Below are positions 3,529-12,894 of a DNA stretch of 31,474 bases, in pieces. How positions within the stretch are numbered: position 1 is the first letter of the stretch; each line of letters starts with the position of its first letter. The position numbers were made by a program, and so were the translations under genes. The notes below the pieces were generated by a model. The model did no database searches and was not told the DNA's origin. It was given only the letters and a program-made list of their open reading frames with translations. This stretch comes from a virus, in the IMG/VR virus record IMGVR_UViG_3300045918_000283, positions 1 to 31,474 of that record; one strand, written 5' to 3'.

Positions 3529-3953
3529 AGCCGTGCCCTTTTTGTGGTGGTGAAAAAATGTATATGGATGCAGTGACGATTGATGATGTTGTCCATTACT
3601 TCTGGGTTTGCAAAACCTGCATGTGTGAAGGACCGGTCGATCAGGATGAGACTATTGCAAAGTTGTTGTGGAATGCGAGAACCGGCGATGCAATAGCCTT
3701 CAATTTTCAACGGACAATTTTTGTCGCACAAAACGGCATCGCCACTCAATCAAAACATATTTTCAGTGAAGCTGTTGAAATCGAGCAGTCAGCCTTGACC
3801 CCGGATATACAGCACACGGCAGAAGAGGTGATGGATTGCCTACACTCCTGTGAAACCGCGCTGCGGATTCTGGAAGAGAAGTACGGCATTAACATTGCCA
3901 AAACCCGCCGCGACGTGGAGCGGAAGAATTTTGACCGGGGGTATTATGCTTAA
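3525..3953 (+). CDS. Lar-family restriction-alleviation-like zinc ribbon protein
   Basis: 142 aa with strong GGAGGGGG ahead of the start. The N-terminal 50 residues (MKPCPFCGGEKMYM... VCKTCMCEGP ... AKLLWNAR) have the Lar-family layout: CPFCGG, a central aromatic strand, C-x2-C and the closing W-N-x-R. Lar of Rac prophage relieves type I restriction by the host. Residues about 52-142 are an extension with no recognised domain (LHSCETALRILEEKYG), much longer than a bare Lar domain. The zinc-ribbon assignment is sound; the anti-restriction role is inherited from the family. Confidence 0.65.
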   Translation: MKPCPFCGGEKMYMDAVTIDDVVHYFWVCKTCMCEGPVDQDETIAKLLWNARTGDAIAFNFQRTIFVAQNGIATQSKHIFSEAVEIEQSALTPDIQHTAEEVMDCLHSCETALRILEEKYGINIAKTRRDVERKNFDRGYYA

Positions 3954-4143: not shown

Positions 4144-4237
4144 ATATAACAGCCCTATGAACAGCAAGCCGACTTGAACGGTACAAAAGTGGTGAGCTAA
4201 AGCACATTACGTTTTGTGGAGGACCGGAGATAAGCGG

Positions 4238-4570
4238 ATGGGGCAGAAAGGTTTAAAAATGGGATATGGCAAAGAACGTCCGTGTAAAAAATGCTCAGAA
4301 GTTAAACCGGTTGTTGCCAGGGGATTATGTTCCGCCTGTTTTGCTCAAGAAAAAAAAGCCGGAACTCTGGAAAACTTCCCAGTGGGTAGTCCGGCCACCC
4401 GAATTAAATCTAAAAATGTTGATGTCACCGATTTGGTCAAACGTGTGGTGAAAGATTGTATTGAGGTTGTTGAAATTCAGGCCAGCCGTTACAAGGCGGG
4501 ATCATGGGACCAGATGGCCTGTCTGGCGGCGGCTGATTCAATTAGAGAAAAATACAGGTTAGCAGGGTAA
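4238..4570 (+). CDS. Zinc-finger hypothetical protein, possible distal cassette gene
   Basis: 110 aa from ATG 4238, with GGAGATAAG ahead of it. An N-terminal Cys4 motif, CKKC at about 14-17 and CSAC at about 29-32, with a basic surround, suggests a zinc finger; the rest is helical (VDVTDLVKRVVKDCIEVVEI and AACLAAADSIREKYR-like segments). The stop codon TAA (4568-4570) is part of the TAAC core of the first attC-like element. A GTTTTGT at 4211-4217 might be a decayed left core, so this gene may be the oldest cassette. Function unknown. Confidence 0.6.
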   Translation: MGQKGLKMGYGKERPCKKCSEVKPVVARGLCSACFAQEKKAGTLENFPVGSPATRIKSKNVDVTDLVKRVVKDCIEVVEIQASRYKAGSWDQMACLAAADSIREKYRLAG

Positions 4571-4615
4571 CGGCTTGAGGGTCAGCGGGTTCTCTGCTGC
4601 ACCCGATGGTTATAT
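4565..4615. other. attC-like recombination site A
   Basis: A 51-bp element with outer cores GGGTAAC (4565-4571) and GTTATAT (4609-4615). GGGT (4579-4582) pairs with ACCC (4601-4604) and CAGC (4583-4586) with GCTG (4596-4599). C4600 is left extrahelical, with unequal spacers of 7 and 4 next to the cores. The first 13 and last 10 bases between the TAAC and GTTA ends are identical to those of site E. This is the architecture of an integron attC site: core, unpaired spacer, interrupted stem, extrahelical base, loop. Confidence 0.7.
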
Positions 4616-4634
4616 TTCGTAGGAGGGTAGAGAT

Positions 4635-4805
4635 ATGGGTACAAAATGCAAAGGATGCACAGCCGACGGTATTTGTTTTGATTGCGACGATGCAGACGAA
4701 AGACCAACAGTGGCGCCTTGCCCGTTCTGCAAAAGCACAGAGGTATACGTTATCAACGGAACAACGGTTTGTAAAAACTGCTGCAAAATACGAGGCCCGC
4801 AATGA
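4635..4805 (+). CDS. Cassette gene: double zinc-ribbon mini-protein
   Basis: 56 aa, ten cysteines, ribosome site AGGAGGG (4621-4627). Four clusters are seen: CKGC (5-8), CFDC (14-17), CPFC (29-32) and CKNCC (46-50), fitting two small zinc sites. The second half resembles CPFC...VCxxC zinc ribbons of phage Lar-like proteins. It begins 20 bp after the attC-like site A and overlaps the next ORF by ATGA. It is interpreted as the first gene of a two-gene cassette; exact function unknown. Confidence 0.6.
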   Translation: MGTKCKGCTADGICFDCDDADERPTVAPCPFCKSTEVYVINGTTVCKNCCKIRGPQ

Positions 4806-5122
4806 ACGGACACGAACAAGACTGTGACTGTAATGTTTGTGAACTCGAAATGCTGGCAGAAGCGAAGCGCAAGAGAAACGCTGAAAACCGGCAAGCTATC
4901 TATCTGGAAGGGAAGATAACAGGCCGGTTAGAAGCGGCGGCCTGTTGCCGCCTGATTCGAGCGTTCTGGTTAGGACGCATACACCATCAAAGGAGCAACA
5001 GCATGACAACATTCCAAGTTATTTGTCTCAAGTGCGGAAGCGAAGATGTTGAAATAAACAATGTCGGCAGTGGCTATCAATTGGTATGCCTAGGCTGCAA
5101 CAACTGGGAGGATGAAGAATGA
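4802..5122 (+). CDS. Cassette ORF reading through attC-like site B into a second zinc ribbon
   Basis: 106 aa. Residues 1-38 (MNGHEQDCDCNVCELEMLAE...) are polar and Cys-containing. Residues about 39-58 are encoded by the hairpin element at 4914-4975, and residues 68-106 are the same protein that can start at the internal ATG 5003. Because site B carries no stop in this frame, two formerly separate cassette genes appear joined. Whether ribosomes really read through or restart at 5003, which has its own AAAGGAGC, cannot be told from sequence. No family recognised for the N-terminal part. Confidence 0.45.
   Translation: MNGHEQDCDCNVCELEMLAEAKRKRNAENRQAIYLEGKITGRLEAAACCRLIRAFWLGRIHHQRSNSMTTFQVICLKCGSEDVEINNVGSGYQLVCLGCNNWEDEE
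4914..4975. other. attC-like recombination site B (least regular)
   Basis: Outer cores AGATAAC (4914-4920) and GTTAGGA (4969-4975; the best match here to the GTTRRRY core). A strong central stem GGCGGC (4936-4941)/GCCGCC (4947-4952) closes a 5-base loop, but the arms between stem and cores pair poorly. It lies between cassette ORFs like the other elements. Its left core is 6/7 complementary to the right core of site A, as expected for the two ends of one cassette. Confidence 0.5.
5003..5122 (+). CDS. Cassette gene: 39-aa zinc ribbon (internal start)
   Basis: From ATG 5003, preceded by AAAGGAGC nine bases upstream, a strong site lying just after the GTTA core of element B. The product has CLKC (residues 9-12) and CLGC (31-34) around a beta hairpin, a minimal zinc ribbon ending in an acidic EDEE tail. 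It shares frame with the longer ORF starting at 4802. Its position after site B and its own ribosome site argue that this is the native start. It overlaps the next gene by ATGA. Confidence 0.55.
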   Translation: MTTFQVICLKCGSEDVEINNVGSGYQLVCLGCNNWEDEE

Positions 5123-5355
5123 AAGACGCGATACTTTTGGAACTGGCAAACAGGTGGGAGCGAGATGCAAAGGCTCCAGAGTGTGAGGATGGATCGAAAG
5201 AGGCTGAACGTGGCAATTACATCGCACAGGGTAGACGCGAAGGCTTGCGGGAATGTGCTGATGGTATCCGCATGTTGGTTCAACTTCTGGGTGGGAATAC
5301 CTACGAGACAGACCAGCAATACGCATTATCACTGAAAGATCGTAGAGTGACATAA
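5119..5355 (+). CDS. Cassette gene: small phage hypothetical protein
   Basis: 78 aa, start overlapping the zinc-ribbon stop (ATGA). The segment GRREGLRECADGIRML (about 40-55) is a pattern common in small phage hypotheticals with N-terminal ELANRWERDAK helices; no function is known for them. Its stop codon TAA (5353-5355) lies inside the left core ACATAAC of attC-like element C, the tight stop/core arrangement typical of integron cassettes. Confidence 0.6.
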   Translation: MKDAILLELANRWERDAKAPECEDGSKEAERGNYIAQGRREGLRECADGIRMLVQLLGGNTYETDQQYALSLKDRRVT

Positions 5356-5412
5356 CGCTTTAGCGTGACCAGCGGCGGTTTTATGCCGACTGGTCCACAG
5401 CGTTTGTTATAT
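5350..5412. other. attC-like recombination site C (best-folded)
   Basis: Cores ACATAAC (5350-5356) and GTTATAT (5406-5412). GT (5365-5366) pairs AC (5397-5398), GACCAG (5367-5372) pairs CTGGTC (5390-5395), and CGGC (5373-5376) pairs GCCG (5385-5388), around an 8-base loop. C5396 and A5389 are extrahelical, placed after 2 and then 6 stem pairs, the same spacing as the two extrahelical bases of classical attC sites such as aadA1. On the minus strand the start TAACAAACGC equals the first ten bases of the Vibrio cholerae repeat as I recall it. Confidence 0.75.
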
Positions 5413-5468
5413 GTCGAATCGACCGATGCCGGAATTCCGATATCGGAACAAATTCAAGGAGATAGCGC

Positions 5469-5813
5469 ATGAACTTAGAAGAAAAAGACAAATACATCGA
5501 AGAACATTTGATGCTGCTATCAGCGGAAACACTGCGTTTCATGGTGGCTGATTTGGCCTCTGAAGCAGACGGATACAAAAAGTCACTGCAAAATACAGTG
5601 ATTGTTCCTGGCGAGCAGTACGATAAGTTGGTTGCGGAAAACGAGGAGTTAAAGCAGCTGGAAAAACAGTATGCTGAATCACTTGGGCGGCTGGCTCAAC
5701 TCTGCGACACGGTATGCCCGTACATTCTCGCAACCTGTAACCCGCATGACGATACAACTATTTATCAGTGTGCCGACGAGATCATGGAATACGTTGATTC
5801 CGTGAGACCGTAA
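5469..5813 (+). CDS. Cassette gene: coiled-coil hypothetical protein
   Basis: 114 aa with CAAGGAGATAG before the ATG. The N-terminal half is helical (LSAETLRFMVADLASEADGY), followed by a coiled-coil stretch (EQYDKLVAENEELKQLEKQY, about 49-68) and a Cys-containing C-terminal part (TVCPYILATCNPHDD). No family recognised. The gene is bounded by elements C and D, whose facing cores GTTATAT and GTATAAC are inverse complements at 6 of 7 positions. The stop lies 11 bp before the TAAC of element D. Confidence 0.6.
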   Translation: MNLEEKDKYIEEHLMLLSAETLRFMVADLASEADGYKKSLQNTVIVPGEQYDKLVAENEELKQLEKQYAESLGRLAQLCDTVCPYILATCNPHDDTTIYQCADEIMEYVDSVRP

Positions 5814-5821
5814 CTAGAGGT

Positions 5822-5881
5822 GTATAACGACCTTGGCGCTGAACCGCCGTTTTTGGGCGGCTTCCAGCGACTTGGTTAACT
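5822..5881. other. attC-like recombination site D
   Basis: Cores GTATAAC (5822-5828) and GTTAACT (5875-5881). CGCTG (5837-5841) pairs CAGCG (5865-5869), AA pairs TT (5862-5863), and CCGCC (5844-5848) pairs GGCGG (5856-5860), with extrahelical C5861 and C5864 and a T-rich 7-base loop. The spacers next to the cores are 8 and 5 bases, unequal as in sites A and E. Confidence 0.7.
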
Positions 5882-5898
5882 ATTTCAAGGAGGAAGAT

Positions 5899-6159
5899 AT
5901 GAGCGAGAAAGTAAAAATACGGATTCAAACGTCACAGAAGGTCACTTATGACCAGATAGTAGAGATGACCCGCGAACAATGGGAGGCGCTGAAAGCAACC
6001 CCTGAAAAACTGATGGAGGACGAATCAAGGAGTCCGTTGTCTGATTGGCTGAATTTCAATGATGTTCTGGATTCTGACGACTATGACGAGCCGAATCTGA
6101 CGGTTGTTGACGACGATGGTAAACCGGTGCGGCCAAACGACTACTATTGCCCGGTGTAG
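5899..6159 (+). CDS. Cassette gene: acidic hypothetical protein
   Basis: 86 aa from ATG 5899, chosen for the strong AAGGAGGA just upstream; a longer in-frame start at 5833 would run through element D. The product is acidic (DVLDSDDYDEPNLTVVDDD) with a repeated TVVDDDGKPVRPND-type C-terminus typical of phage orphan proteins. No function recognised. Flanking cores GTTAACT (site D) and AGTTAAC (site E) are perfect inverse complements, marking this segment as one cassette. The TAG stop is directly adjacent to the TTAAC of site E. Confidence 0.6.
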   Translation: MSEKVKIRIQTSQKVTYDQIVEMTREQWEALKATPEKLMEDESRSPLSDWLNFNDVLDSDDYDEPNLTVVDDDGKPVRPNDYYCPV

Positions 6160-6208
6160 TTAACGGCTTGAGGCTTTGCGGGTTCACCGCAACAGCCGAT
6201 GGTTAGTA
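6158..6208. other. attC-like recombination site E
   Basis: Cores AGTTAAC (6158-6164) and GTTAGTA (6202-6208). GGCT (6172-6175) pairs AGCC (6194-6197), TTGCGG (6176-6181) pairs CCGCAA (6187-6192), loop GTTCA, one extrahelical C6193, spacers 7 and 4. Ends are identical to site A while the stem sequence differs with compensating changes, so the structure rather than the sequence is conserved. Confidence 0.75.
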
Positions 6209-6224
6209 AGCGAAGGAGTATCAA

Positions 6225-6485
6225 ATGGCACTTAATGCAGAAAACGAAGCAGAGTTAAAGAAATTCAGCCTTTACCGTGAGTGTAAAATCCACAACTGGC
6301 ATGGGATAAAGCAGATTGATGGCCCTGAGTTATTTTGTAAGGACTGCCAAATAACCAAACTGACAGCAGAACGGAATAGAGCGAGAGCGATTGTTAAACT
6401 GGTTGCAGATTGCAAGGGCGCGTACGGAGTTTTTGCAATGATCGCATCCGTGGATATGGCTGCAAGGGAAACAGAGTCTTACTAA
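6225..6485 (+). CDS. Cassette gene adjacent to intI: small Cys/His protein
   Basis: 86 aa with GAAGGAG before the ATG. Residues about 20-46 (CKIHNWH...LFCKDCQ) contain a possible C-H-C-C metal site; the C-terminal half is helical (LTAERNRARAIVKLVADC). It is bounded by GTTAGTAAG (6202-6210) and CTTACTAAC (6478-6486), perfect 9-bp inverse complements, and its TAA stop lies inside the second copy. It is the cassette nearest the integrase, which in ordinary integrons is the most recently inserted. No family recognised. Confidence 0.6.
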   Translation: MALNAENEAELKKFSLYRECKIHNWHGIKQIDGPELFCKDCQITKLTAERNRARAIVKLVADCKGAYGVFAMIASVDMAARETESY

Positions 6486-6533
6486 CAATGATTATCAACC
6501 TGTTTCAGCTGTATATCCGGCAAGGAGGAAACC
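6478..6533. other. Candidate attI site beside intI
   Basis: The core CTTACTAAC (6478-6486; on the minus strand GTTAGTAAG) is followed by about 47 bp up to the intI start with no attC-like hairpin. A single core directly upstream of the integrase gene, facing away from it, is the usual form of an integron attI primary site. GGAGG at 6524-6528 serves intI. Only the core can be seen; integrase-binding repeats were not recognisable. Confidence 0.45.
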
Positions 6534-7580
6534 ATGAATACTGCCTTAAAATCTAATGTTTACCTCATAAAACCGCTTGATAATGGAATCATAAAAAGCA
6601 GAAGCAAGAAAGAAACCCTCCTGGATAAACTTTCCAAGGCTATACAGCTGAAACACTACTCCAAGGCAACCGACCGCATGTATTGCGCATATGTTGGAGA
6701 GTTCATTGATTTCCAGATGAAGCAGGAACATCCTGAACACGGAGCAAAAGCAGTTGAAGCATATTTAACCTATCTGGCCGTTGTTAAAAAGGTCGCTGCA
6801 TCTACTCAAAATGTGGCTTTCAATGCCCTGATATTCTTTTATCGAAGAGTACGGGGTGAAGAACTGGGAGACATCAACGCGAGCCGGGCGAAGAAGCCGC
6901 AGAATCTTCCGGTGGTCTGCACAAGGGAAGAAGTTCAAGCGATCCTTGACCAGTTAAAAGGTGATGTCTGGCTGGTGGTTGCTCTGTTGTATGGTTGCGG
7001 GCTCCGAAATGGTGTTGATTGCCTGTCCCTGCGGGTGAAAGATATCGACTTCGGGCAAAACACTGTGACTGTCAGGGAAAGCAAGGGAGGCAGCTGCAGA
7101 GTATTAAACCTTCCAGCTTCCCTGGCAGAACGTATGCAACGGCATATCCAGAAAGTTAAAGCGATACATGAACAAGATCTGCGGGAGGGATGGGGAGTTG
7201 TCGATTTACCCGGAGCACTCGCCAAGAAATACCCGAACGCCAACAGGGAGTTCGGCTGGCAGTATCTGTTCCCGGCTGAATCCAGATGGAAAAATGAAGA
7301 GACCGGACTGCAGGGCCGGCCACATATCCATGAAACGGTGATCCAGAAGGCTGTCAAGTCGGCACGGATCGCAGCCCACATTTACAAACACGTTACCCCT
7401 CACACTTTCCGCCATAGTTACGCGACACATCTTCTGGAAGATGGCGAGACGATCCGTACCGTGCAAGAGCTGCTCGGGCATAAGGATGTCAAGACCACCA
7501 TGATTTACACCCACGTCATGCAAAAGAAATCCTCGGTAAAAAGCCCACTTGATAGGATGTTTATGGTGAAGTCACTATGA
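6534..7580 (+). CDS. intI: Integron integrase (tyrosine recombinase IntI)
   Basis: 348 aa, AAGGAGGAAACC before ATG. The N-terminal SAM-like domain spans about 30-115. Catalytic residues are Arg158 (YGCGLR), Lys184, His290 and Arg293 ([14 protein letters not shown]), His316 (LLGHKDV) and Tyr325 (TTMIYTHV). The mark of IntI against other Xer-like enzymes is the extra segment between the Lys and HxxR motifs. Here it spans about 218-275 and includes [22 protein letters not shown] and [15 protein letters not shown], matching IntI order and wording; the C-terminal VKSPLD motif also fits. It would recombine folded attC sites with attI. Oddities: around Arg158 the usual GLRLMEC reads GLRNGVDC (one extra residue, Asp for Glu), and GKGGKDR reads SKGGSCR. 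It overlaps pnuC by ATGA. Family assignment is firm; activity is unproven. Confidence 0.9.
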
Positions 7581-11735: not shown

Positions 11736-11927
11736 ATGGATGAAAACAAATTTATAAGCTGTATACAAAAAATGCTTGAGGCGGGGTGTAGTTACGCGGG
11801 AGAAACAGACGGGGACCCTTACTGTTTCTATTGTGGGGCTTATCTAGTAGGGAAAGAACCTCATGGCAAAGATTGTGCGTATATTCAAGCGCAAGCCCTA
11901 ATATTGAGTGTGAAAAATGAGCACTGA
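11736..11927 (+). CDS. Small Cys/His protein ahead of tyrosine recombinase
   Basis: 63 aa from ATG 11736, preceded by a run of G that serves as ribosome site; an in-frame upstream start at 11700 would lie inside the direct repeat. CFYCGAYL (about 31-38) plus H45 and C49 (HGKDC) could form one zinc site, the C-x2-C...H-x3-C pattern of many small phage proteins. It overlaps the tyrosine recombinase start by 11 bp, so the two are translated together. No family name can be given. Confidence 0.6.
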   Translation: MDENKFISCIQKMLEAGCSYAGETDGDPYCFYCGAYLVGKEPHGKDCAYIQAQALILSVKNEH

Positions 11928-12894
11928 GTCAATTGATACGTTGATAGCAGAATGGATGGAGTTTCTGTTCATCCAGAAGGGTCACAAGGCCAGAGGAGTG
12001 GAACAGTACGAGAAAGTGGTGCGTGGATTCTTCCAGTGGCTTCGTGGGGCTGAATTAGACGAGGACCCATACAAGGTGTCACAGTCAGCTGTTAATGCAT
12101 GGCAGAGGGCTTTATTTTACGACAAGGGCAATATGTCCAACTCGACCAGAGCTATGAAACTATCCGCGCTCCGGTCTTTCTTTAGTTGGATGAAATACAC
12201 CGGCCTCATTATAGCCGAACCGACTGAAGGAGTACCTTCTCCGAAGATTCAGGAGAAGTTGCCACAGAAGTTCAGCGTGGAGGAGCTCCGGGCGATCTTC
12301 TCCGCTCCGGATCGCGGCAAACTGCAAGGCCTGCGAGATCTCGCTATCCTGATGACGCTCTATGCTGCCGGTCCTCGTGTTTCCGAACTATGCAACCTCG
12401 ACACAAGCAACGTCCACGACTCCGGCGGCGTGATCCGGCTGCACTTTCAGGATGGCAAGGGCGGCAAGGACCGGACCATCACCATCAGAGAGCGTCCGGC
12501 AAAGATTCTGCGTGAATGGCTTGTTGCCCGTTCCAATCTTCCCACAAATCACCGTGCCGTGTTTGTCCGGTTGCGTGGCCAGATGCATACCCGGCTCAGC
12601 GTAGATAGTGCCCAGGACATTCTGAAAAAACATGCTCGGTCAGTTGGCATCATTGATGCTGAAACCTTCGTACATAAGCTCCGTTCGACCTTCGCCAGCG
12701 ATCTCTATGACAGCGGTGATGAAGAATGCCCCCGCTGCCGCTGCAAGATTCACCACGTTGATCTGCTGATGGTGCAGCTGGCACTTGGCCATGAAGACCC
12801 GAAGACCACCATGCCATACATTGCGATCAGTGACCGACATCTACGCAAAACCAGCATTCCAAACCAGAGATTCAAAGAAATTGAGGAGGGATGA
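11917..12894 (+). CDS. Tyrosine recombinase with Cys-rich insert (phage integrase or Xer-like resolvase)
   Basis: 325 aa. N-terminal SAM-like domain about 5-105, catalytic domain about 115-310. Catalytic residues are Arg154 (AAGPRVSELCNL), Lys181/Lys184 (DGKGGKDR), His253 and Arg256 (HKLRSTFASDLY), His292 (LGHEDPKTT) and Tyr301. Between the HxxR helix and LGH, about 17 extra residues carry CPRCRCKIHH (271-280), an arrangement of three Cys and two His that could hold zinc; ordinary XerC/D and phage integrases lack it. It would integrate the phage or resolve multimers. It lies between the origin-like region and the late genes rather than at a phage end. The start overlaps the upstream gene and the end overlaps the Mor-like gene. 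Confidence 0.85.
   Translation: MSTESIDTLIAEWMEFLFIQKGHKARGVEQYEKVVRGFFQWLRGAELDEDPYKVSQSAVNAWQRALFYDKGNMSNSTRAMKLSALRSFFSWMKYTGLIIAEPTEGVPSPKIQEKLPQKFSVEELRAIFSAPDRGKLQGLRDLAILMTLYAAGPRVSELCNLDTSNVHDSGGVIRLHFQDGKGGKDRTITIRERPAKILREWLVARSNLPTNHRAVFVRLRGQMHTRLSVDSAQDILKKHARSVGIIDAETFVHKLRSTFASDLYDSGDEECPRCRCKIHHVDLLMVQLALGHEDPKTTMPYIAISDRHLRKTSIPNQRFKEIEEG

Follow-up and report, generated by a model that had tools for sequence, protein, structure and literature searches.

A phage integron lineage with cassette genes apparently inverted relative to their attC sites

In a textbook integron each cassette consists of a gene followed by its attC recombination site, and the cassette promoter Pc lies at the end of the array next to the integrase gene intI. 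The virus record IMGVR_UViG_3300045918_000283, analysed here over its whole length of 31,474 bases (the window), carries intI preceded by four attC-like hairpins. As a preliminary description made from the DNA letters alone had noticed, the open reading frames (ORFs) of this array face intI: all those within 4571-6485 lie on the + strand, toward intI (6534-7580, +). This raises the question of what has been turned round, the attC sites, intI or the cassette genes. Our comparisons indicate that it is very probably the genes: the window would carry a phage-borne integron in which intI, attI and attC keep their conventional polarity and the cassette genes are inverted, with attC ahead of the gene and the polarity of recombination unchanged.

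Strand of the attC sites

As attC in Rfam gave no match for the window, we built our own covariance model (R1) from 18 bacterial attC bottom strands; an earlier alignment (A2) was dropped because one long site was misaligned. The hairpins are listed with their R1 matches; the strand given is that of the attC top strand, and a slash marks a crossover position.

4568-4612, - (top strand): attC1, at the outer end of the array; left core 4570/4571; one extra C on the + strand 3' arm; R1 match 4565-4615 +, 14.2 bits
5353-5409, - (top strand): attC2; left core 5355/5356; extra A, C and A on the + strand 3' arm; R1 match 5350-5412 +, 14.9 bits
5825-5878, - (top strand): attC3; left core 5827/5828; two extra C on the + strand 3' arm; R1 match 5822-5881 +, 17.7 bits
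6161-6205, - (top strand): attC4; left core TAA/C at 6163/6164; one extra C on the + strand 3' arm; hairpin fold

The hairpins and their right-hand cores (4609, 5406, 5875, 6202) were found where the preliminary description had put them. All four are bounded by TAAC and GTTA, the longer spacer being the one that adjoins the left core, and attC1 and attC4 are 82% identical. The two strand clues that had been reported for these sites also held: extrahelical bases lie on the 5' arm of the minus strand, equivalent to the 3' arm of the + strand, in four of four hairpins, and the minus-strand ends read CTCAAGCCGTTA and TAACAAACGC. The window sites thus have the attC fold with its extrahelical bases and polarity, and the model scored three of the four. 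Terminators and ordinary repeats were considered as the identity of the hairpins and are excluded by bulge polarity, core pairs and shared junctions.

For calibration, bacterial integrons were fetched with intI on the + strand and scanned with a hairpin detector that is blind to orientation. All 30 sites 5' of intI (one Shewanella-phage site included) carried their extra bases on the + strand 3' arm, as did all 34 in a differently filtered scan, and the cassette ORFs were 15 minus to 2 plus. The family of related phage loci, which are cited below by our L numbers, had been gathered by IntI or cassette-protein searches in which gene orientation was not a criterion. Over 18 such loci, bulge polarity was as in bacteria at 18 of 19 sites 5' of intI and opposite at none, and 21 cassette ORFs were plus and none minus. 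These 19 sites exceed chance, since five shuffled sets together gave one; in the 3' flanks of intI at the phage-family loci the same orientation-blind detector found no attC-like sites. Bulge polarity as in bacteria, combined with ORFs on the plus strand, implies that attC polarity is conventional relative to intI and that gene polarity is reversed. By its sequence, the attC bottom strand is the + strand, as it also is in those bacterial integrons whose arrays lie 5' of intI.

The orientation call from a covariance model, which the preliminary description had proposed as a check, came out the same way. With both strands searched and filters off, the three best R1 matches in the 31-kb window were attC3, attC2 and attC1, all on +, and the minus strand of the whole window gave no match at E<=10. 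All R1 matches in the relatives lie on the coding strand, the best of them in L010 (46 bits). Two phages outside the training set served as controls and were both conventional: Shewanella phage M16-3 was matched on + and has its genes on minus, and Tetrasphaera phage TJE1 was matched on minus and has its genes on +. Tallied site by site, the genes lie on the bottom strand at 46 of 49 family attC sites in 19 loci, on the top strand at none and on both strands at two, with one undecided, as against 10 on the top strand, none on the bottom and two undecided for 12 control sites. The window cassettes do not have the form of a conventional gene cassette, in which the gene lies on the attC top strand and attC comes after the stop codon.

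Natural junctions and the mobile unit

If the cassettes were conventional, the + strand would be the attC top strand, each ORF would be followed by its own attC, crossovers would fall at the right-hand cores and the array would have intI at its far end. The TAAC cores are indeed overlapped by ORF stops, as in ordinary cassettes; bulge polarity, spacer polarity and the covariance model, however, all point to the opposite strand, and the site beside intI is attI-like, not attC. Natural recombination junctions show where cassettes are joined. Divided at its left cores, the array reads as follows.

4571-5355, +: cassette A (distal); attC1, then ORFs 4635-4805 (Zn-ribbon-like), 4802-5122 and 5119-5355
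5356-5827, +: cassette B; attC2, leader and ORF 5469-5813 (114 aa); both ends mapped by natural junctions
5828-6163, +: cassette C; attC3, then ORF 5899-6159 (86 aa)
6164-6485, +: cassette D, adjoining attI; attC4, then ORF 6225-6485 (86 aa) with a ribosome-binding site; its stop TAA (6483-6485) lies inside the core

Every cassette ORF of the window is preceded by a Shine-Dalgarno-like sequence, and in none of the four intervals is there a minus-strand ORF of at least 40 aa with such a sequence. A search for relatives of ORF 5119-5355 found none.

Cassette B has its junctions at the left cores, 5355/5356 and 5827/5828, and not at the right-hand cores, where according to the preliminary description crossovers would have made the cassettes conventional. 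Between the window and L111, identity is 83-90% over the first 60 bases to the right of the attC2 left core and at background to its left (attC2 itself is 81% identical, downstream ORF start included). Between the window and L110, the 150 bases that end at the attC3 left core are 77-97% identical, and past it identity is at background; L193 shares the cassette B end too. The flanks are unrelated. At both ends the homology breaks at TAA/C. As both ends of 5356-5827 are left cores, attC2 travels with its downstream gene.

Other members of the family behaved alike, and all four natural junctions that were profiled lie at a TAAC core. The cassettes shared by L009 and L021 and by L014 and L019 stay homologous through the stop codon up to the left core, where homology is lost; the next attC sites are unrelated. 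L193 (reverse strand) holds a 547-bp cassette in tandem duplicate, 100% identical; the identity runs from ATAACG of the first site, with the first attC inside, to ATAACG of the third site, and the third attC, which is different, is left out. Had right cores been the boundaries of the unit, the phase would have been the opposite one. The methyltransferase cassettes of L009 and L027 have attC, leader and ORF start in common. A lipoprotein-like ORF of L003 and of L006 begins inside its attC, with the attC 3' arm and right core within its first codons; attC and the gene downstream of it must therefore form one unit, and a crossover at the right core would sever the ORF within those codons. None of the array pairs compared has an ORF that retains its downstream attC. 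A single automatic 'conventional-type' call, for a block shared by L111 and L193r, was rejected as an attC-only match with a 14-nt overhang. Conventional cassettes are contradicted by these mapped junctions, and we regard them as very improbable. On the sequence evidence the mobile unit is C-attC-leader-ORF-TAA, not ORF-attC, with boundaries at the left cores TAA/C (G/TTA on minus).

Several observations nevertheless weigh against inverted cassettes. R1 gave the window sites modest scores (14-18 bits, E 0.03-0.18) and missed attC4 at E<=10. The extra bases of the window's bottom strands are only C or A, where G/T is usual, which the preliminary description had counted as an objection; this objection is weak, because bacterial reference bottom strands likewise carry C, A, G or T. 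The L193 duplication could in principle be an assembly artefact, and a simple promoter scan showed no excess of promoter-like sites over shuffled sequence. Finally, at 17 pairs of places the attC hairpin is common from left core to right core and the flanking genes are different, so an attC does not in every case stay with its ORF. Hairpins common to unrelated genes have one of their boundaries at the right core, as conventional cassettes would, and on an evolutionary scale the right core too can evidently act as a boundary.

Two examples show how far such sharing goes. The attC hairpins at 3815-3914 and 4460-4559 of L195 are 99% identical over 100 nt, and those at 1260-1315 of L023 and 5012-5067 of L011 are 96% identical over 56 nt, in each case with unrelated genes on both sides. 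Near-identical attC sites on unrelated genes look like re-attachment and are possibly relevant to the genesis of cassettes. Similar attC sites attached to different genes are also seen in bacterial superintegrons.

The attI-like site, intI and expression

Beside the array lie an attI-like site and intI.

6483-6515, -: attI-like site; core TAACAATGATTATC at 6483-6496; inferred crossover 6485/6486 (G/TTA on minus)
6534-7580, +: intI, integron integrase of 348 aa; TIGR02249; R158, K184, H290, R293, H316 and Y325

The suggestion that the core adjacent to intI resembles attI was borne out by the relatives. The core TAACAATGATTATC is kept at the same place by intI in L003, L004, L005, L006 and L008, with one change in L027, and the sequence to its left is different, and unrelated, in every one of these. 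Anatomically, the candidate attI stands beside the intI start, as expected, with TAACAATSATTATC conserved at the array/intI junction in six phages and 48 bp between the crossover and the intI start codon. Inside the array of L023, at 803-816, the attI-like core occurs a second time (TAACTACTGATTAT) where attC would be expected, with a leader downstream of it that resembles the window's ATTTCGTAGGAGG. The record that contains L139 and L196 (G003) has an attI-like TAACCATTGATTATC after a cassette. In the window, an 18-nt inverted repeat (6501-6518 and 6638-6655, 94% complementary) has one arm between attI and the intI start and the other in intI codons 36-41, so that the intI ribosome-binding site lies between them, as seems to be the case in L003; the repeat may serve as an attI accessory site or form an RNA structure.

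In a profile search intI scored 395.3 bits against the integron-specific TIGR02249, for which the cut-off is 265, and among solved structures the nearest was V. cholerae IntI4 (2A3V, E 1.5e-71), with an alignment of nearly full length. The catalytic residues R158, K184, H290, R293, H316 and Y325 are unchanged across a five-sequence alignment of phage IntI. By these matches the window carries a genuine integron integrase. For pairs with an estimable synonymous rate (dS), the ratio of nonsynonymous to synonymous rates (dN/dS) of intI was 0.05-0.10 (0.06 for the window versus L009), the remaining pairs being synonymously saturated and their dS not estimable; these low ratios indicate purifying selection and hence that intI is maintained.

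This bears on the possibility that the array is decayed or inert, its IntI-derived repeats no longer recombining and its gene order fixed by the evolution of the phage operon. L008 (1644-1755), where the attI-like site is retained and intI is reduced to its final 27 codons, would suit such a history, as would the 32-kb record of L139 and L196, in which IntI was not found though attC sites are present. The strong purifying selection on intI in the group of the window speaks against it, as do the identical cassette duplication in L193 and the variation of cassette genes among relatives: the window, L003, L004, L005 and L006 have no cassette gene DNA in common, apart from one 68-nt attC-like match, at an intI identity of 70-77%, as befits a mobile array with varying content. 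Cassettes common to arrays in other contexts do occur. We therefore consider decay unlikely.

From established integron biology, IntI would be expected to bind the + strand of attC in its folded form and to cut it at the left core, which would then be joined to double-stranded attI beside intI; this would place the newest cassette nearest intI. As the cassette genes face intI, a Pc in its usual place would transcribe them antisense, unlike the Pc of a conventional integron, which reads its cassettes in sense from the intI side. Expression would thus depend on read-through of upstream phage transcription, which may include intI as well, given the short distance from the attI crossover to its start codon, where no promoter of its own was seen, and the lack of a promoter excess. 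The preliminary description had suggested a phage early promoter in place of Pc; the phage operon, rather than an integron promoter, probably expresses the cassettes. The logic of expression would then be reversed, with the upstream phage operon as the likely driver and a new cassette farthest from it, and selection for a one-way phage operon could have made inverted cassettes the rule across the lineage.

The setting of the array is that of a phage. Its genes for the large terminase, portal with minor head protein, tape-measure protein, endolysin and primase all lie on the + strand, as do the cassette genes. The window also encodes a serine DNA-invertase-like protein (1876-2442) and a XerD-like tyrosine recombinase (11917-12894). 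One further ORF adjoins the array and is either phage flank or a cassette remnant.

4214-4570, +: ORF of 118 aa, 5' of the array; its stop TAA (4568-4570) contributes to the outer core

Distribution and comparison with known systems

The IntI of twelve phage records and of L027 form one clade (support 97/59; halves 98/95 and 98/94); the tree place of L018, whose intI reading has five stops, was disregarded. L027 comes from a deltaproteobacterial metagenome-assembled genome and is perhaps a prophage or a binned phage; a second IntI in that genome (L192) had no attC match. Two weak sites of the inverted type also occur in L022, which the tree places outside the clade. It is likely that a monophyletic group of tailed phages keeps its own pool of inverted cassettes, with attC in 5' leaders, in which genes and intI are co-expressed by the phage operon and the newest cassettes come last. 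Such a phage-private pool would be functionally apart from the bacterial one, since conventional cassettes would lie antisense in these arrays.

Some of the cassettes in these arrays are of interest in themselves. A two-gene cassette of thyX (PF02511) and a small upstream gene, a metabolic cassette in phage, is found at different array positions in L016 (5920-6885) and L023 (1350-2270). The proteins of L112-L191, a family with about 100 relatives in viral contigs, have no Pfam match and look radical-SAM-like; the gene is an inverted cassette in, for example, L112, L114 and L139 and stands without visible attC in, for example, L113 and L118.

If the inversion is real, attC polarity and gene polarity are separable on an evolutionary scale. 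Inverted cassettes would also offer a handle on cassette genesis, that is, on how attC joins a gene, because they must have arisen with attC at the other end. Annotation rules that presume the order gene then attC would pair each attC here with the wrong gene.

An arrangement with intI and cassette genes in one direction has been described before. In the reverse integron of Treponema denticola, intI is transcribed toward attI and conventional cassettes lie 3' of intI (PMC3607928). The shared direction would fit a window of this type, with conventional cassettes and a turned intI, and two phage loci outside the clade seem so arranged: Rctr41k (L107, 7921-8049) and L024 (3632-3724) each have one minus-strand attC site 3' of intI (the L107 match is weak, E 1.1) and genes on plus, a layout resembling that of Treponema. 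In the window, however, the array and the attI-like site lie on the 5' side of intI, whose transcription leads away from attI, and the coding strand is the attC bottom strand; what is turned in Treponema is intI, whereas the window has a conventional intI and turned cassette genes. We thus find a Treponema-type origin of the window array extremely improbable. Because both layouts set the cassette genes on the transcribed strand of the phage, we suspect selection for operon expression.

Integrons and clusters of attC sites lacking integrases (CALINs) have been published from phage genomes, with integrase, attI and attC; in conjugation assays, attC sites from virulent phages recombined with attI1, with a preference for the bottom strand (Qi et al. 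2023, PMC9892861). In the two such cases that we tested, phages M16-3 and TJE1, the genes are on the top strand and hence conventional, unlike the lineage of the window, and a term search of PMC9892861 gave no mention of inverted cassettes. Single inverted cassettes are on record in chromosomal integrons, such as symE/sRNA-Xcc1 in Xanthomonas (PMC12444791), which resembles the phage case in that the cassette gene faces the other way and is not under Pc. There, the inverted cassette is an isolated exception in conventional arrays; in the phage lineage it is every scorable cassette of the tested arrays. An integron lineage made of inverted cassettes was not reported in the literature searched, which included few subscription journals and no bioRxiv preprints. 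With sedentary chromosomal integrons (L062, L084, L105) the window has in common the IntI family, attI by the intI start, and the fold and polarity of attC relative to intI, and it differs from them in its genes, which in those integrons lie on the top strand, divergent from intI and driven by Pc. Overall, phage integrons, reverse integrons and single inverted cassettes were known already; what appears to be new is a lineage with inverted cassettes.

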